Source of the DNA: Marinifilaceae bacterium
Lineage (GTDB): Bacteria > Bacteroidota > Bacteroidia > Bacteroidales > Marinifilaceae
Assembly (NCBI GenBank): GCA_016936255.1
Contig: JAFGYE010000120.1
Location: forward strand, 1 to 62,624
Direction of reading: 5' to 3'
Length of the DNA stretch: 62,624 nt
The translations under genes were made by a program, and so were the position numbers. Numbering within the stretch: position 1 is the first letter of the stretch; each line of letters begins with the position of its first letter. A model generated the notes under the pieces. The model saw only the letters and a list, made by a program, of their open reading frames with translations. It searched no databases and had not been told where the DNA came from. Of the stretch, positions 15,753 to 59,462 are shown piece after piece.

Positions 15753-15783
15753 TGAAATAGTAAGAATCTTAAAAAGTATAAAA

Positions 15784-16044: not shown

Positions 16045-16106
16045 GAAGTCTTCTTTATCGAACTGTGTTCAAGCTGCTTTTTAAATAGAATTATAAAAAA
16101 ATAAAT

Positions 16107-17126: not shown

Positions 17127-17526
17127 CATGAATTACTCTGTTGAAATTGCCGATTGACAAATGATATGATACAAAATAAATTGAAACGGAATCATTTTGC
17201 TTACAAATGAGATGTTTCGACAAGCTATTAGATTTGTAATCTGCAGGTTTCGAGTTGAGGATCTGTGATGCTCTTGTTAAACGAGTTTGCTTGGATGCGG
17301 GTGACTCAAAATCACCAATACCATGGCCTTCCATTACAAATTTCAGGCCGTGAAATAGACTGAGAGTCTCTCAATGTGTTTTATAAGGCATGTTTGATGG
17401 TAATTAGAAACAATATCCTGATGAGTTTCGCCGAAGACTTACAGGATTCTTATCTGTAAATCATCCGCTAAGTACTTTTTGGTATTGCCTTCATTATCTT
17501 TTAAATTTTTTATCCTTGTTAAAATA

Positions 17527-17585
17527 TATTTTGATGTACATCAAGTTGTATTTTGATGTACATGAAACTTATTTTTGATGTACAT
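17527..17585 (+). repeat. Three direct repeats of TTTTGATGTACAT at 22-bp period
   Basis: TATTTTGATGTACAT occurs at 17527-17541 and 17549-17563, and TATTTTTGATGTACAT at 17570-17585. The ends fall at 17541, 17563 and 17585, exactly 22 bp apart, about two helical turns. Each carries the palindrome ATGTACAT (the first extends to GATGTACATC). This is the geometry of a cooperative operator. Confidence 0.7.
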
Positions 17586-17775
17586 TAAATTTATATTTTA
17601 TTACTAGTGTTTGATCAACTTGTGCTTACAGCAGTTTAAGATCATCAGGATATAACCATAGACAACAAGGTGGTTCTGCTTACCAAAATATTGAGGAGAT
17701 CACTTTAAGTGTGGTTCTCAGTGTATTTTGTGAGAGCATCAAGTTCAAATTAAAAGACTGGAGTTTATAAAAAGG

Positions 17776-17808
17776 AAAACCCGCTGGTTTTGACTCTAAC
17801 GGGTTTTT
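17776..17808. terminator. Terminator for aroA and/or a plus-strand transcript
   Basis: Stem AAAACCCG/CGGGTTTT (17776-17783 with 17800-17807) with T runs on the plus strand after it and T-rich sequence on the minus strand, so it can work in both directions. Confidence 0.75.
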
Positions 17809-17827
17809 TAATATTATCACTTTGGAT

Positions 17828-44995: not shown

Positions 44996-45643
44996 ATGAA
45001 CAAGATAATCTCAATAAAAGAGGCAGTTGCTAAACTGCAGGATGGAATGACCATCATGATCGGAGGATTTCTTTCGGTTGGAACTGCGAATAATATGATC
45101 GATCAGATTGTTTCTTCTAATGTTAAAAATTTAACTATCATTTGTAACGATACAGCTTTCGCAGATAAAGGTCTTGGTAAATTGATTGCCAACAGACAGG
45201 TTGTTAAGGTGATTACTTCTCATATTGGAACAAATCCAGCCACGATTGAACAAATGAATAATGGCGAAATAGAAGTGGAATTTAGTCCTCAGGGTACTTT
45301 GGCTGAGCGTGTTCGTTCAGGTGGCGCAGGGTTAGGTGGAGTTCTTACTCCAACAGGTTTGGGAACCATGGTGGCCGATGGGAAGGAGATTATAACCGTT
45401 GATGGTAAAGAGTTTTTATTGGAAAAACCTTTGCGGGCTGATGTTGCTTTGATTGGTGCAAGTATATCTGATACTCAGGGTAATCTTACATATAGAGGTA
45501 CTACCCAGAATTTTAATCCATTAATGGCGACTGCTGCCGATTTGGTAATTGTAGAAGCTAAGCAGATGGTAGAGGCTGGAACACTGAAGCCGGAAGAGGT
45601 AAAAACTCCATCTATTTTTGTAGATTTTATTGTAAACAACTAA
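44996..45643 (+). CDS. atoD: Acetate/butyrate-acetoacetate CoA-transferase subunit alpha
   Basis: 215-residue alpha subunit of a family I CoA-transferase (GGFLSVGTANNMIDQI, AGLGGVLTPTGLGTMV, SPQGTLAERVRSGGAG). With the beta subunit encoded at 54312 it moves CoA from butyryl-CoA to acetoacetate, releasing butyrate. It is the first gene of the lysine operon and is separated from its partner by eight genes, an unusual arrangement for a heteromeric enzyme. Kal follows after 13 bp. Confidence 0.92.
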   Translation: MNKIISIKEAVAKLQDGMTIMIGGFLSVGTANNMIDQIVSSNVKNLTIICNDTAFADKGLGKLIANRQVVKVITSHIGTNPATIEQMNNGEIEVEFSPQGTLAERVRSGGAGLGGVLTPTGLGTMVADGKEIITVDGKEFLLEKPLRADVALIGASISDTQGNLTYRGTTQNFNPLMATAADLVIVEAKQMVEAGTLKPEEVKTPSIFVDFIVNN

Positions 45644-45656
45644 CTAATATAGACAA

Positions 45657-46040
45657 ATGGAAAAGGCAATGATAAGAATGCGCATGAGTTCTCATGACGC
45701 TCATTATGGTGGAAATTTGGTTGATGGAGCAAAAATGCTTCAGTTATTTGGTGACGTAGCAACAGAATTATTAATCCGTCGCGATGGTGATGAAGGATTG
45801 TTTGCAGGATACGAAAGTGTTGAATTTTTAGCTCCTGTTTATGCAGGTGATTACATCGAAGCAGTTGGCGAAATTATAAAAGAAGGCAACTCAAGCCGTA
45901 AGATGACTTTCGAGGCCCGCAAAGTAATTGTGCCAAGAACAGATATTTCTGAATCTGCAGCTGATTTTTTAGAAGAGCCAGTTGTAGTTTGCAGAGCTGT
46001 AGGAACATGTGTTACTCCAAAGAAATCTCAACGTAAATAA
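45657..46040 (+). CDS. kal: 3-aminobutyryl-CoA ammonia-lyase
   Basis: 127-residue hotdog-fold enzyme that removes ammonia from L-3-aminobutyryl-CoA to give crotonyl-CoA. The start [20 protein letters not shown] and the block [17 protein letters not shown] match the Kal family, and the genetic context (kce, kdd, kam genes) fixes the identity. It is nine bases upstream of kce. Confidence 0.94.
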
Positions 46041-46049
46041 TTATAAGCC

Positions 46050-46874
46050 ATGGAAAAACTGATCATCACAGCAGCCATTTGTGGCGCAGAGGTTACTAAG
46101 GAGCACAATCCAAATGTTCCTTACACTATTGAAGAATGTGTACGTGAAGCAGGTTTGGCTTATGAAGCTGGAGCAAGTATAATTCATCTTCATGTGAGAA
46201 CCGATGATGGAACTCCTACCCAAGATAAGAATCGTTTCAAAATGGTGATGGATGCAATTCACGCTAAATATCCTGAGGTAATTATTCAGCCATCAACTGG
46301 TGGTGCTGTGGGAATGACCAACGATGAAAGACTGCAACCAACAGAGTTGAATCCTGAAATGGCAACTTTAGATTGCGGTACTTTGAATTTTGGCGGCGAT
46401 GAAATCTTCGAGAATACTGAAAACACCATTAAGTATTTTGGTGAGAGAATGATTGAGAGAGGAATTAAACCAGAATTGGAAGTGTTCGATAAATCTATGA
46501 TTGATATGGCTCTTCGTCTTCATAAGAAAGGTTTTATTAAATCTCCAATGCATTTCGATTTTGTAATGGGAGTGAATGGAGGCATTTCAGGTACACTTCG
46601 CGATTTTGTTTTTCTGAGAGAAAGTATTCCTGCTGATGCAACTTATACTGTTGCAGGTATTGGTCGTTTTGAATTTCCACTGGCAGTTGCTGCTATTGTT
46701 GACGGTGGTCATGTACGTGTTGGATTTGAAGACAATACAATGATTTCAAGAGGTGTTGTTGCAGAATCGAATGGTCAATTGGTTGAGAAAGTAGTTCGTT
46801 TGGCGAAGGAATTAGGCCGCGAGATTGCAACACCAGCCGAAGCACGGGAAATTTTAGGGTTAAAGCAAAAATAA
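46050..46874 (+). CDS. kce: 3-keto-5-aminohexanoate cleavage enzyme
   Basis: 274-residue beta-keto acid cleavage enzyme (BKACE fold). It condenses 3-keto-5-aminohexanoate with acetyl-CoA to make L-3-aminobutyryl-CoA and acetoacetate. The zinc-binding HLHVR (HxH) motif is in SIIHLHVRTDDGTPT, and the C-terminal GHVRVGFEDN loop is conserved. Start at 46050 follows kal closely; the 75-bp gap to kdd is a structured spacer. Confidence 0.95.
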   Translation: MEKLIITAAICGAEVTKEHNPNVPYTIEECVREAGLAYEAGASIIHLHVRTDDGTPTQDKNRFKMVMDAIHAKYPEVIIQPSTGGAVGMTNDERLQPTELNPEMATLDCGTLNFGGDEIFENTENTIKYFGERMIERGIKPELEVFDKSMIDMALRLHKKGFIKSPMHFDFVMGVNGGISGTLRDFVFLRESIPADATYTVAGIGRFEFPLAVAAIVDGGHVRVGFEDNTMISRGVVAESNGQLVEKVVRLAKELGREIATPAEAREILGLKQK

Positions 46875-46949
46875 GATTAGATCAAGGAAGTTGAGCAGGA
46901 GTCTTTTTCTCATGTCTCAAATTTCAAATCTCAAATCTAATAATAGGAA
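46875..46949 (+). repeat. Structured spacer kce-kdd
   Basis: The right part (TCTCAAATTTCAAATCTCAAATCTAAT) is built of TCTCAAAT words. Its reverse complement resembles the left part (ATTAGAT, TTGA and GA blocks shared). The spacer can fold back on itself. Confidence 0.6.
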
Positions 46950-47984
46950 ATGAACAAAGGAAATAAATACGGAACACACAGAGTACTTGAACCAAAAGGT
47001 ACTCTTCCACAACCAGCTCAAAAGTTGGATAACAACATGTCGGTTTACGACAATGAGGTTTTAATTGATGTTCAAACATTGAATATTGATTCGGCAAGTT
47101 TTACTCAGATTAAGGGCGCTTGTGATGCTGACACTGCAAAAATGGAAGAAATGATTCTTTCTATTGTTGCTGAACGTGGTAAAATGCAAAATCCGGTAAC
47201 GGGTTCTGGTGGAATGTTGATAGGAACGGTTAAGGCAGTTGGTCCTAACTTCCCAAATCAGGATTTAAAAGTTGGTGATAAGATAGCCACATTGGTTTCT
47301 TTATCCTTAACTCCTTTAAATATTCAAAAAATTAAAAATATTAATCTGTCTAACGATCAGGTTGATGTAGACGCTCAGGCGATTCTTTTTGCGAGTGGTT
47401 TGTATGCAGTTCTTCCAACAGACTTGCCTGAGAAATTGGCTTTGGCAGCTCTTGATGTTGCAGGTGCTCCTGCTCAGGTAGATCGTTTGGTGAAAGAAGG
47501 CGACACGGTTTGTATTATCGGTGGTGGTGGAAAATCGGGTGTGCTTTGCTGCTATCAGGCAATGCAGAAGGTTGGGCCAAAAGGAAAAGTGATTGTTGTG
47601 GAGTATTCGAAAGAAAATGCACAGCGCATTAAAAATCTTGGTTTGGCTACTGATGTTTTGGTTGGTGATGCAACAGATGTAATGGATGTTTACACACGAG
47701 TAACCGAAATAACTGGTGAGGAAGGATGCGATGTGGTAATCAACAATGTAAATGTTGCTTCTACCGAAATGTCATCAATCTTAATCACTAAAGACAGAGG
47801 ATGCGTTTACTTCTTCTCAATGGCCACATCGTTTAGTAAAGCAGCTCTTGGAGCAGAGGGTGTGGGTAAAGATGTTGATATGATTGTTGGGAATGGTTAT
47901 GCAATTGGACATGCCGACCTAACATTAGATATTATCAGAAATTCAAAAGGAATTAGAGAATTGTTCGAAAAATTATACGTGTAA
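46950..47984 (+). CDS. kdd: L-erythro-3,5-diaminohexanoate dehydrogenase
   Basis: 344-residue dehydrogenase that converts 3,5-diaminohexanoate to 3-keto-5-aminohexanoate plus ammonia with NAD(P). The Rossmann stretch CIIGGGGKSGVLCCYQAM is clear in a medium-chain-dehydrogenase-like fold, and the N-terminus (KYGTHRVLEPKGTLPQPA) is typical of Kdd. The stop overlaps the kamA start by one base. Confidence 0.94.
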   Translation: MNKGNKYGTHRVLEPKGTLPQPAQKLDNNMSVYDNEVLIDVQTLNIDSASFTQIKGACDADTAKMEEMILSIVAERGKMQNPVTGSGGMLIGTVKAVGPNFPNQDLKVGDKIATLVSLSLTPLNIQKIKNINLSNDQVDVDAQAILFASGLYAVLPTDLPEKLALAALDVAGAPAQVDRLVKEGDTVCIIGGGGKSGVLCCYQAMQKVGPKGKVIVVEYSKENAQRIKNLGLATDVLVGDATDVMDVYTRVTEITGEEGCDVVINNVNVASTEMSSILITKDRGCVYFFSMATSFSKAALGAEGVGKDVDMIVGNGYAIGHADLTLDIIRNSKGIRELFEKLYV

Positions 47985-49246
47985 TGACTAACAACGACAG
48001 ACGCAGAGAAATGTTTCCTGAGGTAACCGATATTCAGTGGAATGACTGGAAATGGCAGGTGCGTAACCGTATTGAAACATTGGATCAGTTAAAGAAATAC
48101 ATTAGTTTGACTGAAGAGGAAGAAGAAGGAGTTCGCAGATCATTGGCATCATTGCGTATGGCTATTACTCCATATTACATGACTCTAATTGATCAGAATA
48201 ACCCAAATTGTCCGGTTCGTAAGCAGGCAATTCCAACAGCCGCAGAAGTATATCATTCTCCGGCAGATCTTTTGGATCCATTGCATGAGGATGAAGATTC
48301 TCCTGTTCCTGGTTTAACTCACCGTTATCCGGATCGTGTTTTGTTTCTGATAACTGATATGTGTTCGATGTATTGCCGTCATTGTACCCGTCGTCGTTTT
48401 GCCGGACAGTCCGATGCTTCAACTCCTCAGGATAATATCGAGAAAGCAATTGAGTACATCGCAAATACGCCGCAGGTAAGAGATGTTGTTCTTTCAGGTG
48501 GGGATGCTTTGTTGATCAGCGATGATAAATTAGAATATATTATCAGCCGTTTGCGAGCTATTCCTCATGTTGAGATTATTCGTATTGGAACACGTACTCC
48601 TGTTGTTTTGCCACAACGTATTACCGATAATTTGGTGAAAATGTTGAGTAAATATCATCCAATTTGGCTGAATACTCATTTTAATCACTCCGACGAGATG
48701 ACTGAGGATTCTAAAAATGCATTGGCTCGCATGGCAAATGCAGGAATCCCTTTGGGAAATCAATCGGTTCTTTTAAAAGGGGTGAACGATTGTGTTCACA
48801 TCATGAAAAAGTTGATGCACAACCTTGTAATGAACAGGGTTCGTCCGTATTATATTTATCAGTGTGATCTTTCGATGGGATTGGAGCATTTCAGAACTCC
48901 GGTTTCTAAAGGCATTGAGATCATTGAAAATCTTCGTGGTCATACTTCTGGTTTTGCAGTGCCTACTTTTGTGGTTGATGCTCCGGGAGGAGGAGGAAAA
49001 ACTCCGGTGATGCCTCAGTATGTAATTTCTCAGAGTCCTGGAAAAGTGGTAATGAGAAATTTTGAAGGAGTGATTACAACTTATACTGAACCTTCTCATT
49101 ACGATAATAAATGCACTTGTCCTGATTGTACGATGAATGAGAAACACGAAGGGGTTGCATCTCTTTTAAATGGAGATAGATTATCAATAGAACCAGATCA
49201 TTTGGCTAGAAAAGACAGAAATAAAAAAATAGATGCCGTTTCTTAA
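47984..49246 (+). CDS. kamA: L-lysine 2,3-aminomutase
   Basis: Radical-SAM, PLP-dependent enzyme that moves the alpha-amino group of lysine to carbon 3 to give beta-lysine. The [4Fe-4S] cysteines are C127, C131 and C134 in DMCSMYCRHCTRRRF. The PLP lysine is in GGGGKTPVMPQY, and a C-terminal zinc-type cluster CTCPDC is present. At 420 residues it is complete. It overlaps kdd by one base and kamB by 14. Confidence 0.97.
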   Translation: MTNNDRRREMFPEVTDIQWNDWKWQVRNRIETLDQLKKYISLTEEEEEGVRRSLASLRMAITPYYMTLIDQNNPNCPVRKQAIPTAAEVYHSPADLLDPLHEDEDSPVPGLTHRYPDRVLFLITDMCSMYCRHCTRRRFAGQSDASTPQDNIEKAIEYIANTPQVRDVVLSGGDALLISDDKLEYIISRLRAIPHVEIIRIGTRTPVVLPQRITDNLVKMLSKYHPIWLNTHFNHSDEMTEDSKNALARMANAGIPLGNQSVLLKGVNDCVHIMKKLMHNLVMNRVRPYYIYQCDLSMGLEHFRTPVSKGIEIIENLRGHTSGFAVPTFVVDAPGGGGKTPVMPQYVISQSPGKVVMRNFEGVITTYTEPSHYDNKCTCPDCTMNEKHEGVASLLNGDRLSIEPDHLARKDRNKKIDAVS

Positions 49247-50240
49247 CGACATAGAAAATTATAAGAGTCTTTCGATTGTAGGACTTGAGAAAAATACCGG
49301 GAAGACCGAGTGTTTGAATTACGTGCTGTCCCGGCTTAGGGACAGCCGTAAACAAATAGCTCTTACTTCAATTGGTATTGATGGCGAAAGCTGTGATCAG
49401 GTTACACAAACAAATAAGCCCGAAATAGAGCTTCGTGAAGGGATGATTTTTGTGACTTCGGAATTGCATTACAAACAGCGAAAGCTGATATCTGAAGTGA
49501 TAGATGTATCCCGTCAATCAACAAGTTTAGGTCGGTTGGTAAGCGCAAAAGTTTTAAGCAAGGGTAAGGTTCTTTTGTCAGGACCCGTTAGCAATCATTC
49601 CATTAAGGAGTTAATTGCTGATTTAAAAAATAAAGGAGTAGAGCTGTGCATTGTTGATGGTGCTTTATCCCGCAAAAGTATAGGTTCGCCAGCTGTAACC
49701 GAGGCCATGATTTTGGCAACAGGAGCAGCTCTTTCGGCAAATATTACGCAATTGGTTTATAAGACTAAATATGTGTATGATTTGATTCAGTTGCCGGAAA
49801 TTGAAATGAATTTGAAAGCTCAATTATCTGAAGTAGATAATGGCATTTGGGCAATCGATTCGGAATGCAAGTTTCAGGATACTGGAATTAGTTCTGTTTT
49901 GCTGATTCAAAAAGAAAAGGATAAGCTTTTTCAGCATGGCAATAGCTTTTTTGTGAGTGGCGCTGTAACCGATCAGTTTTTAGATTTTCTGAAGAATCAG
50001 AAACAGATTTCTGAAATAGAGCTGATTGTCAGAGATTTTACAAGAGTATTTGCAAATCCTGAAACCTATTATGCTTTTGTAAAGCGAGGCGGAAGAATAC
50101 AGGTTTTAAATAAAACCAATTTGTTGGCGATTACAATTAATCCTGTTTCGCCTGATGGATACCGATTGAATTCGGATGAGTTGAAAAGTGCATTGCAGGA
50201 TAAAGTAAATGTGCCGGTTTACGATATAAAAAGATTGTAG
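49233..50240 (+). CDS. kamB: KamB: P-loop subunit of the lysine 5,6-aminomutase reactivase
   Basis: 335-residue protein with a Walker A motif GLEKNTGKT at residues 17-25, near the N-terminus, reminiscent of small P-loop NTPases. It overlaps the end of kamA by 14 bp and stands two bases before kamC. In Bacteroidota and relatives the pair kamB-kamC lies in this operon; the reported role is reactivation of the B12-dependent aminomutase KamDE, which I recall but cannot verify here. The rest of the protein shows no other familiar domain. Confidence 0.78.
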   Translation: MPFLNDIENYKSLSIVGLEKNTGKTECLNYVLSRLRDSRKQIALTSIGIDGESCDQVTQTNKPEIELREGMIFVTSELHYKQRKLISEVIDVSRQSTSLGRLVSAKVLSKGKVLLSGPVSNHSIKELIADLKNKGVELCIVDGALSRKSIGSPAVTEAMILATGAALSANITQLVYKTKYVYDLIQLPEIEMNLKAQLSEVDNGIWAIDSECKFQDTGISSVLLIQKEKDKLFQHGNSFFVSGAVTDQFLDFLKNQKQISEIELIVRDFTRVFANPETYYAFVKRGGRIQVLNKTNLLAITINPVSPDGYRLNSDELKSALQDKVNVPVYDIKRL

Positions 50241-50242
50241 AA

Positions 50243-51640
50243 ATGTTTCGGGAAGTAGTATCACATACAAGCGGATTGCAATTTCTGATGGAGAATCTGG
50301 ATTTAAGATCTCCCATGGGAAGACGTTGTTTGCTGGATTCGAAAATGATGTGCTGCGAAAAGGAAATTACTGCCGAATTGAACTTGGTGGATCGGATAGT
50401 ACAAGCTTTGGAGTTGAATTCAGATTTTATTTTTCAAATTCAGAATAAATTAGCTCAGTTGCGCGATATCCGTGGAAGCGTGAATAATTTGCTTGGTAAT
50501 TTGGTGCTTGATGATGTTGAACTGTTCGAAATTAAGGTGTTTGCTTTAGTGGCTCAGGATATTGTTGAACTTCAAAAAGAAGGAAAGCAGAGTTTTCTGG
50601 AAATTCAGGATCTGAGTCAATTGATTCGTTTGCTGGATCCTCAAAATACAAAAATTCCATCTTTTTACATCTACGATAATTATTCAGAGGAATTAGCTGT
50701 AGCTCGTAAAGAGTTGAGATTCGCTAAGAGTAAAAATGGAGATTCTGAATTGGATATTGAAGTTTTATTTAGCAAATCACAAGAAATTGAGGCAAAGGTT
50801 CGTGAGGATCTATGTTCTAAAATCTCCTTACACGGATCCGGTTTAGCAAATGCCTTGCAGCAATTGGCTCATTTGGATTTATTGATCGCGAAAGCTGTTC
50901 AAGCTAAAAGTTTACAGCTGAGTAAGGGAGAAGTATCTAAGGGAAATACAATATATAGGGGCTTGTTCAACCCAATGATCAAAAATGAACTGGCAAACCA
51001 GAATAAAGATTACCAGACTATAGATATTGAGCTTGAAAGTTCGGTTTGTGTAATTACAGGAGCGAATATGGCTGGGAAAACGGTGGTGTTAAAAACACTT
51101 GCTCTTTGTCAGTATTTGTTTCAGTTTGGATTTTTTGTTCCGGCCGCATCGGCACAAATCAGCATTGTAGATAAAGTTATGATATCGGTTGGCGATGAGC
51201 AATCAGAATTAAATGGCTTATCTTCATTCGCCTCTGAAATGTTGAATGTGAGCCGTATGGTAAAAGATTCTAAAAGCCATAAAAATGTTTTGGTTTTGAT
51301 TGATGAATTGGCTCGGACAACAAATCCGGTAGAAGGTTTGGCAATTGTAAATGCCGTAGCGGATATTTTTTATCAAGGAAAAATAAAAAGCGTAATCACT
51401 ACACATTACAGTGGTTTAAAATCCAAGTTCAGAAAACTTCGGGTGAAAGGTCTGGACAAGGATTTGGGTGCAAATGTAATCACCCGCAAAAATATAAACA
51501 GTTATATGGATTATTCATTGGTAGAGGATCTGGAAGGGGAAGTTCCTCACGAAGCGCTTCGGATTGCTTCTTTATTGGGAATCGATAAAGAGATTATTGA
51601 AAAAGCGCAGAACCAATTAGCGAGTAAGAATAAATTATGA
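50243..51640 (+). CDS. kamC: KamC: MutS-like ATPase of the lysine 5,6-aminomutase reactivase
   Basis: 465-residue ATPase with the MutS-type nucleotide site: Walker A GANMAGKT at residues 273-280, Walker B VLVLIDELARTTNP, and TTHYSGL. The N-terminal half is helical and lacks a MutS DNA-binding domain, so it is not a mismatch-repair protein. The operon position next to kamB and kamD supports a reactivase for KamDE. The following 81-bp gap is a structured spacer. Confidence 0.82.
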   Translation: MFREVVSHTSGLQFLMENLDLRSPMGRRCLLDSKMMCCEKEITAELNLVDRIVQALELNSDFIFQIQNKLAQLRDIRGSVNNLLGNLVLDDVELFEIKVFALVAQDIVELQKEGKQSFLEIQDLSQLIRLLDPQNTKIPSFYIYDNYSEELAVARKELRFAKSKNGDSELDIEVLFSKSQEIEAKVREDLCSKISLHGSGLANALQQLAHLDLLIAKAVQAKSLQLSKGEVSKGNTIYRGLFNPMIKNELANQNKDYQTIDIELESSVCVITGANMAGKTVVLKTLALCQYLFQFGFFVPAASAQISIVDKVMISVGDEQSELNGLSSFASEMLNVSRMVKDSKSHKNVLVLIDELARTTNPVEGLAIVNAVADIFYQGKIKSVITTHYSGLKSKFRKLRVKGLDKDLGANVITRKNINSYMDYSLVEDLEGEVPHEALRIASLLGIDKEIIEKAQNQLASKNKL

Positions 51641-51721
51641 GTTATTAATTATAAATGATGAATTGTGTAATACAGTTTCCTGATTTATAATTCATAATTC
51701 TTAAATCATAATTAGGAAGAA
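51641..51721 (+). repeat. Structured spacer kamC-kamD
   Basis: AT-only-like arms TTATTAATTATAAATGATGAAT and TTATAATTCATAATTCTTAAAT fold as an imperfect hairpin. Word content differs from the other spacers of this operon. Confidence 0.55.
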
Positions 51722-53275
51722 ATGGAGAGGAGTAAACTAGGTCTTGACTTTGAGAAAGTTGGACACGCAAAAGAGGTGTCGAAGCGAATTGCAGACGAGG
51801 TTCAGAAATTCGTAGAGAACTATTCAACTGTTTCGGTTGAGAGAACTTTGTGTCGTCTTTTGGGAATCGATGGAGTTGATAACAACGAGGTGCCGTTACC
51901 AAATGTTGTTGTTGATGAATTGCAGGAAAAAGGAGTTTTGAGCGAAGGTGTAATGTTCTTTTTGGGAAATGCTGTTTTGGAAACAGGTTTAAACCCGCAG
52001 GAAATTGCAGAGAAAATCGCTGTTGGAGAATTGGATCTAACTAAGATTCCGGTTCATTCAACTGAAGAAATTCACAAGGCAATTCAACCTTTTGTAATGA
52101 AAAGTATTCAGGTGATTAAGGATCGCAAAGCGAAAAGAGATAATTACATAGAAACAATAGGTGAAGGACCAAAGCCTTATTTATATGTAATTGTGGCAAC
52201 TGGTAATATCTACGAAGATGTTGTTCAGGCAGAGGCTGCAGCTCGTCAGGGTGCCGATATTATTGCTGTAATTCGTACTACCGGACAAAGTTTGCTTGAC
52301 TACGTTCCTTACGGAGCAACAACCGAAGGTTTTGGTGGAACTGTGGCAACTCAAGAAAATTTCCGAATTATGCGTACTCACCTTGATAAAATTGGTGAGG
52401 AAGAAGGCAAATACATCCGTTTGTGTAACTACTGTTCTGGTTTGTGTATGCCAGAGATTGCTGCAATGGGAGCGATTGAAGGTTTGGACGTGATGTTGAA
52501 CGATGCATTGTACGGTATCCTTTTCCGCGATATCAACATGCAACGTACTATTGTCGATCAGTACTTTTCAAGATTATTGAATGGTTTTGCCGGTGTAATT
52601 ATTAACACCGGAGAAGATAATTACCTGACAACTGCTGATGCATTTGATGAGGCTCACACTGTGTTGGCTTCCGATTTTATTAACGAGCAGTTGGCTTTGG
52701 TAGCAGGTTTACCTGAAGAACAAATGGGGTTAGGTCACGCTTTCGAAATGGAACCGGGACTAGAGAATGGTTTCCTTTATGAGTTGGGTCAAGCTCAAAT
52801 GATCCGAGAGATTTTTCCTAAGGCTCCTCTAAAATATATGCCTCCAACAAAATTCATGACCGGGAATGTATTTAAAGGCCATGTTCAGGATGCATTGTTC
52901 AATCAAATTTCAATTTGGACCGGACAAGGAATTCAGTTGCTGGGAATGCTTACTGAAGCAATTCACACACCATTCATGTCCGACAGATATCTTTCTATTG
53001 AAAACGCTAAATACATTTTCAACAACATGAAGAGTATTGGTGATGAAATGGAATTCAAAGAAGGCGGAATCATTCGTCAGCGTGCAGCAAAAGTTCTTGA
53101 TGATGCAACTGAATTGGTTGAGAAAATCGAAAAAGAAGGATTGTTTACAGCACTTGAAAAAGGGATTTTTGCTGATATCAAACGTCCGAAAAACGGCGGT
53201 AAAGGTTTAGCCGGAGTTGTGGAAAAAGGAAGCAACTACTTCAATCCGTTTATTGAATTATTGCATAAAAAGTAA
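51722..53275 (+). CDS. kamD: Lysine 5,6-aminomutase alpha subunit
   Basis: 517-residue large subunit of the adenosylcobalamin- and PLP-dependent aminomutase that shifts the terminal amino group of beta-lysine (or D-lysine) to carbon 5. The N-terminal SKLGLDFEKVGHAKEVSKRI and the TIM-barrel part (AAARQGADIIAVIRTTGQS, VPYGATTEGFGGT) are those of KamD. The beta subunit follows. Confidence 0.96.
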   Translation: MERSKLGLDFEKVGHAKEVSKRIADEVQKFVENYSTVSVERTLCRLLGIDGVDNNEVPLPNVVVDELQEKGVLSEGVMFFLGNAVLETGLNPQEIAEKIAVGELDLTKIPVHSTEEIHKAIQPFVMKSIQVIKDRKAKRDNYIETIGEGPKPYLYVIVATGNIYEDVVQAEAAARQGADIIAVIRTTGQSLLDYVPYGATTEGFGGTVATQENFRIMRTHLDKIGEEEGKYIRLCNYCSGLCMPEIAAMGAIEGLDVMLNDALYGILFRDINMQRTIVDQYFSRLLNGFAGVIINTGEDNYLTTADAFDEAHTVLASDFINEQLALVAGLPEEQMGLGHAFEMEPGLENGFLYELGQAQMIREIFPKAPLKYMPPTKFMTGNVFKGHVQDALFNQISIWTGQGIQLLGMLTEAIHTPFMSDRYLSIENAKYIFNNMKSIGDEMEFKEGGIIRQRAAKVLDDATELVEKIEKEGLFTALEKGIFADIKRPKNGGKGLAGVVEKGSNYFNPFIELLHKK

Positions 53276-53431
53276 CAAGTATAAAGTAACAAGTACAAAG
53301 CATCAAGTAAAAAGTTCCAAAAAAATAAGTTTTGGGAGCTGGGAAGTCCCCCTTTCAGGGGGGATTAGGGGGGTGTTAAAAGACACGGGTGCGATTGCAT
53401 TTGATATTTAAAATATAAAGGAGACAAAAAA
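53276..53431 (+). repeat. Structured spacer kamD-kamE with a TCCCCC/GGGGGG hairpin
   Basis: The left part is AAGTAACAAGTACAAAGCATC-like short repeats. A hairpin TCCCCC-tttca-GGGGGG (53347-53363) is followed by GATTAGGGGGGTGT, similar to repeats I remember from other Bacteroidota genomes. It ends in a strong Shine-Dalgarno-like AAAGGAGAC (about ten bases before the ATG of kamE). Confidence 0.65.
53418..53427 (+). promoter_or_regulatory. Shine-Dalgarno-like AAAGGAG before kamE
   Basis: AAAGGAGAC stands about ten bases before the kamE ATG. Such clear purine-rich sites are not seen before most genes of the window. Confidence 0.5.
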
Positions 53432-54220
53432 ATGAGTGGAGGTCTTTATTCAACTGATTCCAACGAATTTGATAAAACACTTGATCTAACTAAGATCAAG
53501 CCTTACGGCGATACCATGAACGATGGTAAAACTCAGGTTAGTTTTACTTTGCCGGTAGCCAAAGGTGACGAAGCCATCGAAGCAGCCAAACAAATGATGA
53601 GGGAAATGGGTTTTGAAAATCCTCAGGTTGTATATGTGCAGGAGCTAATGGCAGGATTTACATTTTTCAATTGTTATGGAAATTGTATTCATACTGTCGA
53701 TTTTACAGGAATTACTGTTCCTAAAGTGGAAGCAACGGCTATGGATATGCACGAAACGGATGATTTCATTAAAGAAAACATTGGTCGTCCGATTCGTGTT
53801 TTAGGCGCCAGTACAGGTTCCGATGCGCATACTGTTGGAATCGATGCCATCATGAATATGAAAGGTTTTGCCGGACACTATGGTTTGGAGCGTTACGAAA
53901 TGATGGAAGCTTTAAACATGGGAAGTCAGGTGCCAAACGAAGAGTTTATTGCGAAAGCAATAGAATTTGAAGCTGATGTTCTTTTGGTATCACAAACAGT
54001 TACTCAAAAAGATGTTCATATTAAGAATTTGGTAGAACTGGTTGAGCTAATGGAAGCTGAAGGATTGCGCGAGAAAGTAATTTTAATTTGCGGCGGACCG
54101 CGGATTTCTCATGAGTTGGCAAAAGAATTGGGTTACGATGCCGGTTTTGGAATGAATAAATATGCCGATGATGTTGCATCATACGCAGCTCAGGAATTAA
54201 GCAGAAGAATAAATAAATAG
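53432..54220 (+). CDS. kamE: Lysine 5,6-aminomutase beta subunit
   Basis: 262-residue subunit that binds cobalamin and PLP. The B12-binding DxHxxG motif is D131-A-H133-T-V-G136. A typical B12-fold segment (KVILICGGPRISHELAKELG) follows. It pairs with KamD encoded upstream; the 91-bp gap behind it is a structured spacer. Confidence 0.95.
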   Translation: MSGGLYSTDSNEFDKTLDLTKIKPYGDTMNDGKTQVSFTLPVAKGDEAIEAAKQMMREMGFENPQVVYVQELMAGFTFFNCYGNCIHTVDFTGITVPKVEATAMDMHETDDFIKENIGRPIRVLGASTGSDAHTVGIDAIMNMKGFAGHYGLERYEMMEALNMGSQVPNEEFIAKAIEFEADVLLVSQTVTQKDVHIKNLVELVELMEAEGLREKVILICGGPRISHELAKELGYDAGFGMNKYADDVASYAAQELSRRINK

Positions 54221-54311
54221 TACAGAGTCGTTAGTACTTGGTAGCTAGTCAAACTGGTTACTAAAGTCTAAAACTAGTTACTGATAACTAACTACTTATT
54301 ACTCATAAGAT
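54221..54311 (+). repeat. Structured spacer kamE-atoA
   Basis: GTTAGTACTTGGTAGCTAGT (54230-54249) pairs with ACTAGTTACTGATAACTAAC (54273-54292): 15 of 20 bases complementary plus G-U pairs. Also ACTGGTTACT/ACTAGTTACT direct copies. Confidence 0.65.
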
Positions 54312-54974
54312 ATGGATAAAAATGAAATCAGAGAGGTAATTGCCAGAAGAGCAGCTCTCGAATTACACAATGGTGATGTAGTAAATCTTGGAATCGGATT
54401 GCCAACAATTATCCCAAATTACGTTCCTGAAGATGTGAATGTGATTTTACAATCGGAGAATGGATTGTTGGGGATGGGTGTTGCTCCTGCTGAAGGAGAA
54501 GAAGATCCTGATTTTGTAAATGCCGGTGGTGGATTTATTACTTGTAAAAATGGCGCCAGTAGTTTCGATAGTTCTGTTTCTTTTGGAATTATTAGAGGTG
54601 GTCATGTTGATGTTACTATTTTGGGAGCCCTTCAGGTAGACGAAAAAGGAAATTTAGCAAACTGGATTATTCCAGGCAAAAAAACTCCGGGAATGGGAGG
54701 AGCTATGGATTTGATCGTTGGAGCCAAGCGTGTGATTCTTGCCATGGAGCATACTGCACGCGGAAGTCATAAGATCATGACGGATTGTAATCTTCCATTA
54801 ACTGCGGCAGGTCAGGTAAATATGATTATCACAGAAATGGGTGTTATGGATATCGTTCCGGAAGGAATTCTTTTAAAAGAGATCAATCCCTTATTTACCA
54901 TTGAGCAAATTCAGGAAGCTACCGATGCAAAATTAATTATTACTGAGGATTTAATTGAAATGAGAAAAAACTAG
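54312..54974 (+). CDS. atoA: Acetate/butyrate-acetoacetate CoA-transferase subunit beta
   Basis: 220-residue beta subunit with the catalytic Glu49 in SENGLLGMG, the hallmark of family I CoA-transferases. N-terminal NGDVVNLGIGLPTIIPNYV is typical. Its partner atoD lies at 44996. The split order, with eight genes between the subunits, is also what I recall from related lysine clusters. Confidence 0.94.
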   Translation: MDKNEIREVIARRAALELHNGDVVNLGIGLPTIIPNYVPEDVNVILQSENGLLGMGVAPAEGEEDPDFVNAGGGFITCKNGASSFDSSVSFGIIRGGHVDVTILGALQVDEKGNLANWIIPGKKTPGMGGAMDLIVGAKRVILAMEHTARGSHKIMTDCNLPLTAAGQVNMIITEMGVMDIVPEGILLKEINPLFTIEQIQEATDAKLIITEDLIEMRKN

Positions 54975-55124
54975 ATATGAGAAAATAGATATGAGATATC
55001 AGACATGAGATATTAGATTTAAGAAATTAAATAGTCGTAAAGACAGATGGTTTTAATTTTAGGTCTCATATTTCAGTTTTCAGTTCTCACATCTTTCATC
55101 TCAAATCTCAAATCTAAAAAAGAT
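54975..55124 (+). repeat. Structured spacer atoA-thiolase
   Basis: The left half is built of ATATGAGA words and the right half of TCTCAAAT/TCTCATAT words, so the two halves are mutually complementary (18 of 24 in the best block). Same word family as the kce-kdd and thiolase-bcd spacers. Confidence 0.65.
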
Positions 55125-56330
55125 ATGAGCAAAGTATATATTGTTGCAGCCAAGCGAACTGCAATCGGGAAATTTTTAGGAGCATTAACTCCTGTTAAAG
55201 CCACTGATTTGGCAGCCACAGTAATCAAGAACATCATTGAAGAAACCGGCGTTGACGCGGCTAAAATTGATGAGGTTGTTGTTGGTAATATCCTTATGGC
55301 TGGTCAAGGTCAGGGGATTGCCCGTCAGGCTTCCATTAAAGCAGGTATTCCTCAGGAAGTTCCTGCTTACGGAATCAACATGATTTGTGGTTCAGGTATG
55401 AAAACAATCAATTTGGCCTATGCGAACATTAAAGCCGGGGAAGCGAATTTGATACTTGCCGGAGGAACCGAGAACATGTCGGATGCTGGTTTTGTAATGC
55501 CGGGAACTGTTCGTACAGGACACAAAATGATGGATTTGAAAGCAGTTGACCACATGGTTTTTGATGGTTTAACAGATGCTTTTGAAGGATACCATATGGG
55601 AATTACGGCAGAAAACATTGCTGCTAAATATAACTTAACCCGCGAAGAGCAGGATGCTTTTTCTTTTGCTTCTCAGCAAAAAGCAATGGCCGCTCAGGAT
55701 AAGGGAAATTTTAAGAATGAAATTGTTCCTGTAGAGATAAAATCCCGCAGAGAAACAATCATTTTTGATGCGGATGAATTCATTAATCGCGGAACCAGCG
55801 CTGAAAAATTAGCTGGCTTACGTCCCGCTTTTAAAAAGGATGGAACTGTAACAGCAGGCAATGCATCGGGTATAAATGATGGTGCGGCCTTTGTATTGGT
55901 TGCTTCGGAAGAGGCCGTTAAAGAATTTGGATTAACTCCTCTTGCTGAGATTGTAGCTACCGGTCAGGGTGGTGTTGATCCGGCAATTATGGGGATGGGA
56001 CCTGTTCCTGCAATTGCAAGTGCATTGAAGAAAGCGAATATGAAATTGGAGCAAATGGAAGTGCTTGAATTGAATGAAGCTTTTGCGGCTCAATCATTAG
56101 GAGTGGTAAAACAATTGTGCGAAGATCACGCTGTTGATGCTGATTTCTTTGCTGAAAGATGCAATGTGAACGGAGGAGCTATCGCTTTAGGTCATCCAAT
56201 TGGAGCATCAGGAACCCGTATTACCGTAAGTTTAATTCACGAAATGAAGCGTACTGGAAAAGAGTTTGGTTTGGCTTCGCTTTGTATTGGTGGCGGAATG
56301 GGTACTGCAATTATTTTGAAAAACGTGTAA
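55125..56330 (+). CDS. atoB: Acetyl-CoA acetyltransferase (thiolase)
   Basis: Cleaves acetoacetyl-CoA into two acetyl-CoA. The ATG at 55125 (MSKVYIVAAKRTAIGKF) gives 401 residues; an upstream frame begins inside the spacer and is rejected. Active-site Cys88 is in NMICGSGMKTIN, the His in GHPIGASGTR and the second Cys in CIGGGMGTA. In this operon it finishes the lysine pathway. Confidence 0.96.
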   Translation: MSKVYIVAAKRTAIGKFLGALTPVKATDLAATVIKNIIEETGVDAAKIDEVVVGNILMAGQGQGIARQASIKAGIPQEVPAYGINMICGSGMKTINLAYANIKAGEANLILAGGTENMSDAGFVMPGTVRTGHKMMDLKAVDHMVFDGLTDAFEGYHMGITAENIAAKYNLTREEQDAFSFASQQKAMAAQDKGNFKNEIVPVEIKSRRETIIFDADEFINRGTSAEKLAGLRPAFKKDGTVTAGNASGINDGAAFVLVASEEAVKEFGLTPLAEIVATGQGGVDPAIMGMGPVPAIASALKKANMKLEQMEVLELNEAFAAQSLGVVKQLCEDHAVDADFFAERCNVNGGAIALGHPIGASGTRITVSLIHEMKRTGKEFGLASLCIGGGMGTAIILKNV

Positions 56331-56423
56331 ACAGATAGGAGATATGAGATGTTAGATATGAGATTTTTCTCATGTCCTGATCTTTTAGTCTCATATCTAG
56401 TATCTCAAATCTATATTTAAAGA
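56331..56423 (+). repeat. Structured spacer thiolase-bcd
   Basis: GAGATGTTAGATATGAGA (56346-56363) and TCTCATATCTAGTATCTC (56389-56406) form an 18-bp stem with 16 Watson-Crick pairs and two G-U pairs. No T run follows, so it is not a terminator. Confidence 0.75.
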
Positions 56424-57563
56424 ATGGATTTTAGCTTAACAAAAGAACAGGAATTATTCCAGCAGATGATTAAGGATTTTGCTGAGAATGAAGTGAAACC
56501 TTTGGCTGCTGAAGTAGATGATTTGGAAAGATTTCCGGTTGAAACAGTTGAGAAGATGGCCAAAATTGGAATTATGGGCATTCCTATTCCAAAGCAATAT
56601 GGTGGTGCAGGCGGAACAAATGTAATGTACTCGATGGCCGTTGAAGAACTGTCGGCAGTGTGTGCAACTACAGGGGTTATTGTATCGGCTCACACATCAT
56701 TGTGTGCGGCTCCTATTTTGGAGTACGGAACAGAGGCACAAAAGCAAAAATACCTTCCAAAACTTGCTTCAGGAGAATGGATTGGGGCTTTTGGTTTGAC
56801 TGAACCTAACGCGGGTACCGATGCTGCAGGACAACAGACAACCGCAATTGAGGATGGCGATAATTATATCATCAACGGAAGTAAAATATTTATTACCAAT
56901 GCAGAATTTGCTCACGTTTATGTGATTTTGGCAATGACTGATAAATCACAAGGTACACGTGGTATCACTGCTTTTATCATTGAAAAGGGAACTCCTGGTT
57001 TTTCTATCGGAAAAAAAGAAAAGAAAATGGGTATCCGCGGATCTGCAACCTGCGAATTGGTATTCGAAAACTGTATTGTTCCTAAGGAAAACATGTTGGG
57101 TAAATTGAGTAAAGGTTTTGGTATTGCGATGAAAACTTTAGATGGCGGACGTATTGGTATTGCCGCTCAGGCTTTGGGTATTGCGCAGGGAGCTATCGAC
57201 GAAACAGTGAAATATGTGAAAGAAAGAAAGCAGTTCGGTCGACCGATTTCTGCCTTCCAAAACACACAATTTCAGTTGGCTGATATGAATACCAAAACGG
57301 AAGCGTCGCGTATGCTGGTTCGCAAAGCAGCTTACAAAAAAGATGCTAAACTTCCTTATTCGGTTGATGCTGCAATGGCTAAACTATACGCTGCTGAAAC
57401 AGCAATGGAAGTGACCAATAAGGCAGTTCAACTTCACGGTGGATATGGTTATACCAGAGAATATCCGGTGGAGCGTATGATGCGTGATGCAAAAATCACA
57501 GAAATCTACGAAGGAACATCAGAAGTTCAGAGAATGGTAATTTCAGCCAATATGTTAAAATAA
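56424..57563 (+). CDS. bcd: Butyryl-CoA dehydrogenase (short-chain acyl-CoA dehydrogenase)
   Basis: 379-residue FAD enzyme that reduces crotonyl-CoA to butyryl-CoA with electrons from EtfAB. The catalytic Glu363 is in IYEGTSEVQRMVI, the typical Bcd position, and the FAD/substrate signatures ITNAEFA and KKEKKMGIRGSATCEL are present. Directly upstream of etfB and etfA, so a Bcd-Etf complex is likely; electron bifurcation is possible but not shown. Confidence 0.93.
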   Translation: MDFSLTKEQELFQQMIKDFAENEVKPLAAEVDDLERFPVETVEKMAKIGIMGIPIPKQYGGAGGTNVMYSMAVEELSAVCATTGVIVSAHTSLCAAPILEYGTEAQKQKYLPKLASGEWIGAFGLTEPNAGTDAAGQQTTAIEDGDNYIINGSKIFITNAEFAHVYVILAMTDKSQGTRGITAFIIEKGTPGFSIGKKEKKMGIRGSATCELVFENCIVPKENMLGKLSKGFGIAMKTLDGGRIGIAAQALGIAQGAIDETVKYVKERKQFGRPISAFQNTQFQLADMNTKTEASRMLVRKAAYKKDAKLPYSVDAAMAKLYAAETAMEVTNKAVQLHGGYGYTREYPVERMMRDAKITEIYEGTSEVQRMVISANMLK

Positions 57564-57577
57564 GGATTTAATTATTC

Positions 57578-57646
57578 GTAGGGACACGACATGTCGTGTC
57601 CGTTTAACACGAAACGATTTAAGGACACAACATGTCGTGTCCCTAC
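57578..57646 (+). repeat. Double palindrome spacer bcd-etfB
   Basis: GGACACGACATGTCGTGTCC (57582-57601) is a perfect 20-bp palindrome. GGACACAACATGTCGTGTCC (57623-57642) is a near copy. The flanks GTAGG and CCTAC are complementary, so the element can fold as one long hairpin or as two crosses. I remember similar GTAGGGACACG repeats in unrelated genomes. Confidence 0.75.
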
Positions 57647-57669
57647 AATCCCAATAAAAAGAAAACAAA

Positions 57670-58455
57670 ATGAATATAGTTGTCTGTATTAAACAGGTAC
57701 CGGATACAACCGAAATCAAAATTGATCCGATTACGGGAACTTTGATCCGTGACGGTGTGCCAAGTATTATGAACCCTGATGATAAGAGTGGTTTGGAAAT
57801 GGCATTGCAATTGAAAGATGAAAAAGGAGCTCATGTTACTGTGATTACTATGGGACCTCCTCAGGCCGATTTAATTCTTCGTGAGGCTTACGCTATGGGC
57901 GTTGATCGGGCGATTCACTTAACGGATCGAAAATTTGCAGGAGCAGATACTTTGGCTACTTCGCATGCTTTGGCAGGTGCATTGCGGAAGATCGATTTTG
58001 ATCTTTTGATTACAGGCCGTCAGGCGATTGATGGTGATACAGCTCAGGTAGGTCCACAAATTGCTGAACATCTGGATTTGCCTCAGGTATCTTATTTGGA
58101 AGATTTAAAATTCGACGGAGATAAGACATTCACAATGAAACGTCATATCGAAGACGGATACCAAATGCTGGAGGTAGAAGCTCCTTGTGTGGTAACCGTT
58201 CTTTCATCGGCAAACACTCCACGTTACATGAATGTTGGCGGCATTGTTGATGCCTACCAAAAAGAGGTTGAGGTTTGGGGATTCAACGAAATTGAAGTTG
58301 ATGAGAAAGATTTGGGATTAAAAGGATCACCAACAAGCGTACACAAAGCATTTGCCCGTGGCTTGAAACCAGCAGGTGAACTTTACGAAGTTGGTACTGA
58401 TGAGGCCGTAGGAATCATCATCAAGAAGTTAAAAGAGAAATTCATTCTAAACTAG
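57670..58455 (+). CDS. etfB: Electron transfer flavoprotein beta subunit
   Basis: 261-residue EtfB; MNIVVCIKQVPDTTEIKID start and DGDTAQVGPQIAEHL motif. It passes electrons between dehydrogenase and acceptor with EtfA, encoded eight bases downstream. Whether it is the NADH-bifurcating form cannot be decided by eye. Confidence 0.95.
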   Translation: MNIVVCIKQVPDTTEIKIDPITGTLIRDGVPSIMNPDDKSGLEMALQLKDEKGAHVTVITMGPPQADLILREAYAMGVDRAIHLTDRKFAGADTLATSHALAGALRKIDFDLLITGRQAIDGDTAQVGPQIAEHLDLPQVSYLEDLKFDGDKTFTMKRHIEDGYQMLEVEAPCVVTVLSSANTPRYMNVGGIVDAYQKEVEVWGFNEIEVDEKDLGLKGSPTSVHKAFARGLKPAGELYEVGTDEAVGIIIKKLKEKFILN

Positions 58456-58463
58456 TTACAGCT

Positions 58464-59462
58464 ATGAAATTAGAGGATTACAAAGGTATATACGTCTTCA
58501 TCGAACAACGTGAAGGTATCATTCAAAACGTAGCTTTGGAATTGTTAGGACAGGCTAGAAAGCTAGCTGATGAGTTGAACGACAAAGTGTATGCGATGCT
58601 ATTGGGGCATCATATTACTGATCAGGCGCAGAGCTTAATTGGCCGTGGTGCCGATGAGGTAATTGTTGTGGATGCTCCTGAACTAAAAGAATATACTACA
58701 GAACCATATACACAGGCAATCTGCCAAATTATCAGCGAAAGAAAACCGGAATCTTTATTTATCGGGGCAACCACTTTGGGTCGTGATTTGGGTCCAAGAG
58801 TTTCGGCTCGTGTAGGCACTGGTTTAACTGCTGATTGTACCAAAATTGAGATTGGCGAAAATGGCGAAATGTTAATGACTCGTCCTGCTTTTGGAGGTAA
58901 CCTTATGGCGACTATTGTTTGTAAAAACCATCGTCCGCAAATGGGAACGGTTCGTCCGGGAGTATTGTTTGCAATGGATACTGACGAAAGTCGTACCGGA
59001 GCTATCGTGAACTACGAGGTGAAATTCAATGCAGCTAAGTTTCGTGTGAAATTGTTGGAAACTGTGAAGGAAGACAACAATCTAATCGATATTACCGAAG
59101 CCAGAATTTTGGTTTCAGGCGGACGTGGAATTGGTAATAAAGAAGGGTTTGAAGCAATGGATGCATTAGCTCATACATTGAATGCAGAAGTTTCGGCTTC
59201 CCGTGCTATGGTTGATGCCGGTTACATTGGTCACGATCGTCAGGTGGGCCAGACAGGGAAAACTGTTCGTCCCGATTTGTACTTTGCATTCGGCATTTCA
59301 GGAGCCATTCAGCATGTTGCCGGTATGGAAGATTCTGATTTGATTATTGCCGTAAACAAAGACAAATACGCACCAATTTTTCAGGTTTCCGATTTGGGTA
59401 TTGTTGGCGATGCCAAACAAATCATTAAAAAGCTAACCGAGAGATTGGAAAAACAAAATTAA
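58464..59462 (+). CDS. etfA: Electron transfer flavoprotein alpha subunit
   Basis: 332-residue EtfA with the FAD-binding C-terminal block: SGGRGIGNKEGFEAM, VGQTGKTVRPDLYFAFGISG and AVNKDKYAPIFQVSDLGIVGD. Last gene of the lysine operon, followed by a terminator. Confidence 0.96.
   Translation: MKLEDYKGIYVFIEQREGIIQNVALELLGQARKLADELNDKVYAMLLGHHITDQAQSLIGRGADEVIVVDAPELKEYTTEPYTQAICQIISERKPESLFIGATTLGRDLGPRVSARVGTGLTADCTKIEIGENGEMLMTRPAFGGNLMATIVCKNHRPQMGTVRPGVLFAMDTDESRTGAIVNYEVKFNAAKFRVKLLETVKEDNNLIDITEARILVSGGRGIGNKEGFEAMDALAHTLNAEVSASRAMVDAGYIGHDRQVGQTGKTVRPDLYFAFGISGAIQHVAGMEDSDLIIAVNKDKYAPIFQVSDLGIVGDAKQIIKKLTERLEKQN

Follow-up and report, generated by a model that had tools for sequence, protein, structure and literature searches.

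Junctions of the lysine operon

The window analysed here is a stretch of 62,624 nucleotides (nt), positions 1 to 62,624 of contig JAFGYE010000120.1 of a Marinifilaceae bacterium (assembly GCA_016936255.1; this genome, 4.71 Mb in 120 contigs, is designated G000). It carries on the forward strand a 14-gene lysine-fermentation operon (44996..59462), and the spacers between the genes of this operon are the subject of the present analysis. The gene order, atoD-kal-kce-kdd-kamA-kamB-kamC-kamD-kamE-atoA-thiolase-bcd-etfB-etfA, is conserved in the nearer relatives. NCBIfam matches above the cut-off were obtained for kal, kce, kdd, kamA, KamB, KamC, KamD and KamE; atoD and atoA reached the cut-offs of CoA-transferase subfamilies and thiolase that of its subfamily, whereas bcd, etfB and etfA gave family matches below the equivalog cut-offs.

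Junction sizes were taken from the open reading frames (ORFs) and from tblastn. Six of the 13 junctions are tight: atoD-kal (13 nt), kal-kce (9 nt), kdd-kamA (-1 nt), kamA-kamB (-14 nt), kamB-kamC (2 nt) and etfB-etfA (8 nt). The other seven are loose: kce-kdd (75 nt), kamC-kamD (81 nt), kamD-kamE (156 nt), kamE-atoA (91 nt), atoA-thiolase (150 nt, if thiolase starts at 55125 and not at the longer ORF start 55047), thiolase-bcd (93 nt) and bcd-etfB (106 nt). A preliminary description made from the same DNA had reported six tight and seven repeat-filled junctions; the division was confirmed, its sizes were right within a base and the words that it named are present in the spacers.

A feature missed in that description is a 7-base period, found by autocorrelation and by Tandem Repeats Finder (TRF) in six of the seven loose spacers: kce-kdd (z 5.5), kamC-kamD (5.6), kamD-kamE (8.3), kamE-atoA (5.7), atoA-thiolase (9.4) and thiolase-bcd (6.0), with 0.1 for bcd-etfB. 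These six spacers are degenerate heptad arrays, usually one array 3' of the stop codon and a complementary array of the same family 5' of the next start codon. The units were sorted into families, labelled F1 to F6 for this analysis: F1 (CTCANAT/ATNTGAG) occupies kce-kdd, atoA-thiolase and thiolase-bcd; F5 (TTCATAA) occupies kamC-kamD, F2 (TACTTGN) kamD-kamE and F3 (TTACTAA) kamE-atoA.

The kce-kdd spacer (46875..46949, + strand, as for all spacers) holds F1 heptads of TCTCAAA type, with a pyrimidine-rich arm 5' of kdd, a degenerate 5' arm and a TRF period of 7 at 46915-46938. The kamC-kamD spacer (51641..51721) is an F5 fold-back of ATTCATA heptads, detected by TRF and by folding, which was divided by eye into arms at about 51641-51667 and 51683-51721 and a middle at 51668-51682. 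In the kamD-kamE spacer (53276-53431) the 5' array (53266..53315, +; F2, CAAGTAT type; TRF periods 7, 14 and 21) starts within the final kamD codons; a C/G palindrome, CCCCCTTTCAGGGGGGATTAGGGGGG (53347..53373, +), recognisable in seven aligned species, is apparently nested in an older F2 element of the same spacer. The kamE-atoA spacer (54221..54311), an F3 fold-back of TTAGTAC and GTACTAA, is common to the relatives G002 and G005. TRF and folding identified in the atoA-thiolase spacer (54975..55124) an F1 array of ATATGAG at 54968-55033 and one of CTCAAAT within 55071-55119, and a 9-base direct repeat, AGATATGAG, bounds the spacer. In the thiolase-bcd spacer (56331..56423) the F1 array ATATGAG at 56333-56364 pairs with CTCATAT at 56389-56412.

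The bcd-etfB spacer (57564-57669) is of another kind. A repeat listing and folding revealed a unit GTAGGGACACGACATGTCGTGTCC (57578..57601, +) and a second, inverted unit (57623..57646, -), which together form an inverted dimer. Each is a palindrome tagged at one end by an unpaired GTAG (GTAG + GGACACGACATGTCGTGTCC), as in a repetitive extragenic palindrome (REP). The element is multicopy: 15 matches with up to 3 mismatches were found at about 10 places, against 0 in the control; the pattern used omits the GTA of the tag, and one palindrome may be matched on both strands. The repeat was absent beside all three genes with a Y1_Tnp domain in G000, within flanks of roughly 0.5-1.5 kb. The dimer (57578-57647) spans the whole of Rfam family RF03564 (mir-9416; E 7.5e-4, below the gathering score), a microRNA family which may contain or resemble bacterial repeats; none of the 3 Rfam matches at E<=1 reached the gathering score.

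The spacers do not qualify as intrinsic terminators (a G+C-rich hairpin followed by a T run): one of the seven has a weak sense-strand match, at 56355-56376, and the scan overall yielded 15, against 10.7 +/- 3.4 expected.

Dispersal and turnover of the repeats

The heptads are not confined to this operon. The F1 word, with up to 2 mismatches, has 101 matches genome-wide in G000; its reversed control has 2. A 1.63-Mb sample of this genome was examined, with 1325 genes called by a custom script and gaps of at least 40 nt considered. Period 7 (z>=5) was found in 36 of 897 gaps, six control periods giving 3-9 each, and in none of 946 coding segments at lag 7. By orientation, the period was present in 30/629 co-directional, 3/118 convergent and 3/150 divergent gaps. 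The lysine operon is enriched (6/13 junctions with heptads versus 24/616 other co-directional gaps, p=1e-5); this comparison is conservative, the 629 gaps omitting those under 40 nt and the 13 junctions including the tight ones, and the denominators are not exactly matched.

Outside the operon contig 23 co-directional heptad gaps were listed, and flanks were annotated for 12: trpA/trpB, trpD/trpG, DAHP synthase/aroB, hisA, sdhA, glycyl-tRNA ligase (two gaps), etfB/etfA, a hydroxyacyl-CoA dehydrogenase/thiolase-like pair, an enoyl-CoA hydratase/biotin carboxylase pair and, both with unnamed neighbours, a Dpp7-like peptidase and a SpoIID/LytB-like gene. As to position, 21 of 36 sense F1 arrays finish 4-13 nt 5' of a start codon, and for 17 of 24 antisense arrays the beginning falls between -10 and +20 nt relative to a stop codon, in a loose scan tallied by hand in which 100/179 merged matches were intragenic (42/54 for the reversed control). 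In the sdh region of G000 (C89:117737-118210) two apparent arms of an F3-type heptad fold-back enclose a called ORF, about 117 codons long.

F1 words exceeded the reversed control in all eight Labilibaculum genomes (16-132 versus 0-3), in G013 (108 versus 5), in G015 (37 versus 1) and in Ancylomarina euxinus (G023; 50 versus 1). Most other family members have few, and over 198 genomes of the phylum the distribution is patchy, the counts being meaningless where the reversed control scores equally high.

Among 40 genomes, G000 included, KamE was found at E<=1e-40 in 22, and the operon region was retrieved for 20 relatives out of 21 (all but G026). Spacers were analysed in 14 genomes, G000 and 13 relatives; the seven more distant ones set apart (G009, G012, G017, G020, G022, G024 and G028) have in some cases gaps reaching 141 nt or more. 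Period 7 (z>=4) was present in 51 of the 92 spacers of 45-400 nt, against 0, 1, 1 and 0 for control periods.

One and the same junction may be near-empty, filled, or occupied by another heptad family, depending on the genome. The kamC-kamD junction holds the 81-nt F5 filling in five genomes, 6-17 nt in six and an F1-like filling in G013. At atoA-thiolase, F1 is found in G000, G003 and G013, other heptads in G005 and GTAG-like elements in G004, G006 and G015, whereas the site is near-empty (2-4 nt) in G007, G002, G001 and G011, with 2 nt in the first two. The etfB-etfA junction measures 8-12 nt in eight listed genomes. In G003, G002 and G005 it is occupied by an F4 fold-back (141-143 nt), and in G006 and G001 by a filling of 153 nt that shows no clear period 7. 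Near-empty sites at these three junctions thus span 2-17 nt in some genomes. A single GTAG REP unit is retained at bcd-etfB in G007. In G001 and G015 kamD-kamE holds another palindrome, of TCCCGATAACTACGGGA type, and a similar one lies in a gap of G000 (C74:21352).

Between G000 and G007, gene identity is 98.5-99.3% for kamE, atoA and thiolase and 97.4% for bcd, and the bins (up to 100 nt) adjoining three differing spacers are 97-100% identical; yet kamE-atoA is F3 in one and F1 in the other, atoA-thiolase is 150 versus 2 nt and thiolase-bcd is 93 versus 200 nt with only the final bases in common. Removal from G000 of the sequence that separates two copies of AGATATGAG would give the atoA-thiolase site of G007. 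A 7-base array gap separates G002 from G005 at kamD-kamE, as expected of slippage.

Tight junctions were compared in the 12 nearest genomes (G018 and G023 set aside; G006 without the first genes). There atoD-kal, kdd-kamA and kamA-kamB are tight wherever they were read, kal-kce is filled in G013 (56 nt), etfB-etfA is filled in five genomes and kamB-kamC, in two genomes with a doubtful start call (G004 and G001), has an apparent 120 nt; G023 has 77-108 nt at atoD-kal, kal-kce and kdd-kamA. Real stability is therefore limited to the overlapping junctions and some of the very short ones.

As a control, 15 co-directional gaps of 40-300 nt, located in the window outside the operon and with orthologues in G007, G002, G003 and G005, were tallied by hand: 9/15 vary by at most 6 nt and 3/15 by more than 75 nt. 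For the seven loose junctions plus etfB-etfA, 7/8 vary by more than 6 nt and 5/8 by more than 75 nt. Turnover is concentrated in the operon junctions, yet not exclusive to them. Strong purifying selection on whole spacers was considered and rejected: the divergence of shared spacers (0.099 and 0.120 with G003, 0.025 and 0.088 with G002) is lower than at 4-fold and third codon sites, but similar to that of ordinary co-directional window gaps (pooled, 0.174 for G000-G003 and 0.086 for G000-G002). Elsewhere in the window, the junctions of 3752-17827 have no counterpart in the compared sister stretches; this region, with genes for TPR, ECF sigma factor, FecR, SusC/SusD-like, Mx1 metallopeptidase, DUF4302 and Ig-like proteins, is perhaps a species-specific utilisation island.

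The trp operon, compared in eight Labilibaculum genomes with families judged by eye, shows the same pattern. The trpE-trpG (3 nt) and trpD-trpC (2 or -4 nt) junctions are tight in 8/8 genomes and trpF-trpB overlaps in the 6/6 that were read. The trpG-trpD, trpC-trpF and trpB-trpA junctions are loose in most, although G001 has 13 nt at trpC-trpF and 35 nt at trpB-trpA. Their fillings vary by species: F1, F2, F3, F5 or other heptads, GTAG REPs or CCCCTAAAGGGG elements; trpB-trpA contains C/G elements resembling the kamD-kamE palindrome. The TAG stop codon of trpC comes from the GTAG of a REP in 7/8 genomes, the palindrome being degraded in G002 and G003; atoA of G004, G006 and G016 likewise takes its stop codon from a GTAG. 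In G006 the trpC-trpF REP is followed by tandem units of about 13 bases (GGTGTGTCCGAAC type), an array apparently grown from the end of the REP, and in G000 a Y1 transposase gene (C73:43140-43484), surrounded by its own palindromes, lies directly downstream of trpA. An element specific to the lysine operon was rejected, the words being genome-wide and the trp operon alike.

Predicted RNA structure of the spacers

The sense strand of each loose spacer was folded and compared with 200 dinucleotide shuffles. Five spacers folded clearly better than the shuffles (z, with the number of shuffles at least as stable in brackets): kamD-kamE -4.6 (0), kamE-atoA -2.6 (3), atoA-thiolase -3.8 (0), thiolase-bcd -4.0 (0) and bcd-etfB -8.4 (0). 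The result was marginal for kamC-kamD (-2.0; 9/200) and not significant for kce-kdd (-1.1; 25/200). The statement that all seven are self-complementary, for which this folding had been proposed as a check, is strongly borne out for five, weakly for kamC-kamD and not for kce-kdd.

The 92 spacers of the 14 genomes include orthologues and are not independent. Among them fold z was <= -2 in 67/92 on the sense strand and 51/92 on the antisense strand, and the sense z was the lower in 70/92 spacers and in 41/51 heptad spacers. Against selection for RNA structure, ordinary co-directional gaps are also sense-biased (207/337; heptad gaps 15/22), and the heptad gaps of the genome sample are only slightly ahead in folding, with a median z of -1.8 (n=22) versus -1.35 for other co-directional gaps (n=337).

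Divergence at paired and unpaired sites was compared in 11 groups and 13 control gaps, with structures predicted from single sequences; this replaced an alifold comparison of 12 groups, which was biased to conserved pairs, and kce-kdd of G002/G004, with one difference, was left out. The median paired/unpaired ratio was 0.61, against 0.94 in the controls (p=0.013), but the pooled ratios were equal (0.85 and 0.86) and kamD-kamE went in the opposite direction (1.13). Single changes preserved the pair in 392/919 cases (535/1631 in the controls). No compensatory covariation was detected, double changes preserving the pair in 48/143 cases against 147/287 in control gaps. Mismatches of G.T and A.C type were nearly equal in heptad arms (37 and 29), with a weak excess of G.T in strong fold-backs (60 and 42).

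An arm-swap test was performed on 29 hand-chosen representatives, in which both arms were of the same family in 24; five had no same-family partner. The own arm was preferred over same-family arms from other junctions in 20/24 (p=0.0007), and in 17/21 after three uncertain families were dropped (p=0.003). The polarity of the arrays, with purine-type ones tending to lie after stop codons and pyrimidine-type ones before start codons, was abandoned as an argument for insertion coupled to transcription: the two strands of an inverted repeat read alike, so that the rule follows from the fold-back.

Origin of the spacers and relation to known repeats

We consider it probable that the loose junctions serve as common insertion sites of dispersed, slippage-prone intercistronic repeats which turn over, are transcribed as hairpins and are probably under mild constraint. 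Most fillings are fold-back heptad arrays drawn from several interchangeable degenerate families, with one array following the upstream stop codon and its complement ending typically 4-13 nt before the next start, a niche that GTAG-tagged REPs and C/G palindromes share. Slippage in 7-base steps would make the arrays grow and shrink, recombination between units would delete them and another family would then replace them. Overlapping junctions have escaped invasion in the nearest genomes; a short non-overlapping one, etfB-etfA (8 nt), has been invaded. Transcription as hairpins between cistrons is expected because the repeats lie inside operons, and pairing, once present, may be mildly maintained. 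A mild constraint on pairing is likely; a necessary RNA function goes beyond the present evidence.

Several observations weigh against this reading. The excess of heptads in co-directional gaps is not significant (30/629 versus 6/268 convergent plus divergent, p=0.09). The share of F1 words that lies in the lysine operon, counted as overlapping and not independent words, is high in some genomes (11 of 101 in G000, 13 of 118 in G007, 18 of 132 in G003 and 20 of 108 in G013; 2-4 words in G002, G004, G015 and G023; none in G005, G006, which is partly covered, G016, G001 and G011), and neutral landing alone does not explain this hotspot. No near-identical copy of the heptad spacers of the window was found in the 1.63-Mb sample, the best matches being 72-82% over 41-86 nt for the longest and up to 100% over 24 nt for short ones; copy-paste of fixed units is rejected on these grounds. 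No heptad-mobilising enzyme was identified in a search directed at Y1 transposases only. In the five-species alignment of kamC-kamD, 3 of 66 columns vary in the arms and 8 of 15 in the middle (p=2.5e-5, with a division made after the alignment had been seen and a predicted fold that pairs part of the middle); the near-invariant arms look like selection.

The spacers could instead be RNA hairpins under selection, acting in the processing or protection of the polycistronic mRNA or in setting the ratios of the subunits; any sequence that folds back would then suffice, and the families would be interchangeable. The sense-strand folding, the lower median divergence and better preservation of pairs under single changes, the preference for the own arm, the conserved kamC-kamD arms around a variable middle and the position beside metabolic genes in apparent operons are in its favour. 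It is rather unlikely in view of the poorer preservation of pairs under double changes, the equal pooled ratios, the near parity of G.T and A.C in heptad arms, the sense bias shared by ordinary co-directional gaps, the nearly empty junctions of some close sisters and the ordinary folding of kce-kdd. A more specific form, which we regard as doubtful, would make the spacers swappable cassettes of marine Marinifilaceae: what is conserved would be the presence, between the stop codon and the point of ribosome entry, of a fold-back with period 7, whatever its family, and pairing, not sequence, would tune or insulate translation and decay of neighbouring cistrons; related species would then retune the same pathway by cassette exchange. 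Homologous recombination between species might also swap whole junctions among Labilibaculum strains, the repeats being passive. The patchwork of similarities would suit it: at kamE-atoA G000 goes with G002 and G005, at thiolase-bcd G007 with G003, at atoA-thiolase G000 with G003, and the near-empty atoA-thiolase of G007 with that of G002; the 3' end of kamE in G000 is 99% like G005 and 97% like G007, and third-position divergence drops towards some junctions. This explanation is improbable: the flanks of G000 and G007, 97-100% identical up to three different spacers, require very short tracts, and recombination creates neither heptad families nor 7-base length changes. That the heptads bind a protein of the cold-shock type, one that covers 7 nt of single-stranded RNA, seems very improbable, since the families share no sequence and the complementary arms would be paired; the period of 7 across unrelated families and the pyrimidine-rich arrays that often end 4-13 nt 5' of starts would agree with it, as would a suggestion for TAACTGA repeats, in the portion of PMC4679880 consulted, which cites binding of heptamers by CspB.

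On balance, the data speak for dispersed repeats that insert and turn over, with a modest structural constraint in addition. The preliminary description had proposed selection for an RNA structure, with insertion of short repeats as its alternative. For the former, lower paired-site divergence in the medians, own-arm preference and five clear folds stand beside the absence of compensatory covariation, a weak sense-strand bias and ordinary folding genome-wide. The latter is supported by genome-wide dispersal, turnover at fixed junctions, sites of 2-17 nt in close relatives and the occupation of the same niche by GTAG and C/G elements. Its structural interpretation is partly supported: pairing seems mildly maintained, yet spacers are absent or replaced in some close relatives. 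Its remark on convergent architecture with different sequences was right, with a simpler root, most spacers being families of one kind, period-7 fold-back arrays.

Degenerate heptanucleotide arrays are known in cyanobacteria as short tandemly repeated repetitive (STRR) sequences, and the tRNA-Leu intron of Nostoc has complementary heptads which form a stem. The degenerate heptads are alike; that stem is intronic, whereas those described here lie at operon junctions of Bacteroidota. The bacterial interspersed mosaic elements (BIME) and enterobacterial repetitive intergenic consensus (ERIC) sequences of enterobacteria are dispersed inverted repeats between operon genes, transcribed and strain-variable; they are likewise intercistronic, dispersed and inverted, but are not known to have a 7-base period.

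The TAACTGA heptamer direct repeats are, in the portions of MacGregor (2015, PMC4679880) consulted, mostly intergenic and often just 5' of starts, patchy in Cyanobacteria, Beggiatoaceae and five Bacteroidetes, and different between two Cyanothece strains mostly by 7-nt steps; relatives with shorter intergenic regions have no obvious repeats, and for up to six direct repeats no particular RNA structure is predicted. The 7-base intergenic arrays near start codons are a likeness to the present spacers, in which, unlike TAACTGA, the units are degenerate, of several families and arranged in complementary pairs; TAACTGA itself was not found as a tandem array in the 1.63-Mb sample beyond 3 matches to three units with up to 4 mismatches. 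GTAG repeats are listed for Proteobacteria, Cyanobacteria, Chloroflexi and PVC, not Bacteroidetes, in the consulted part of PMC3733652 (2013). The short bcd-etfB and trpC-trpF palindromes resemble the GTAG REPs described there in the unpaired GTAG at one end, their dispersal, their location after genes and, for bcd-etfB, the arrangement as an inverted dimer; they differ from those with a REP-associated tyrosine transposase (RAYT) in that the three Y1 transposase loci of G000 lack the bcd-etfB repeat, although RAYTs may also be flanked by unrelated terminal repeats (same source). Searches of the open-licence literature revealed no earlier account of such complementary arrays of heptads at junctions of Bacteroidota operons.

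In kind, the dispersed repeats of the spacers are known; what is new is their arrangement at operon junctions as complementary arrays of heptads, from families that can replace one another, and their turnover is fast. Sister species with near-identical genes and near-empty, filled or differently filled junctions provide a natural experiment on intercistronic spacers. Since a single place records near-empty sites, fillings from several families and length steps of 7 bases, the system is a tractable one for the origin and movement of heptad repeats, which are known to occur in giant sulfur bacteria and in cyanobacteria.

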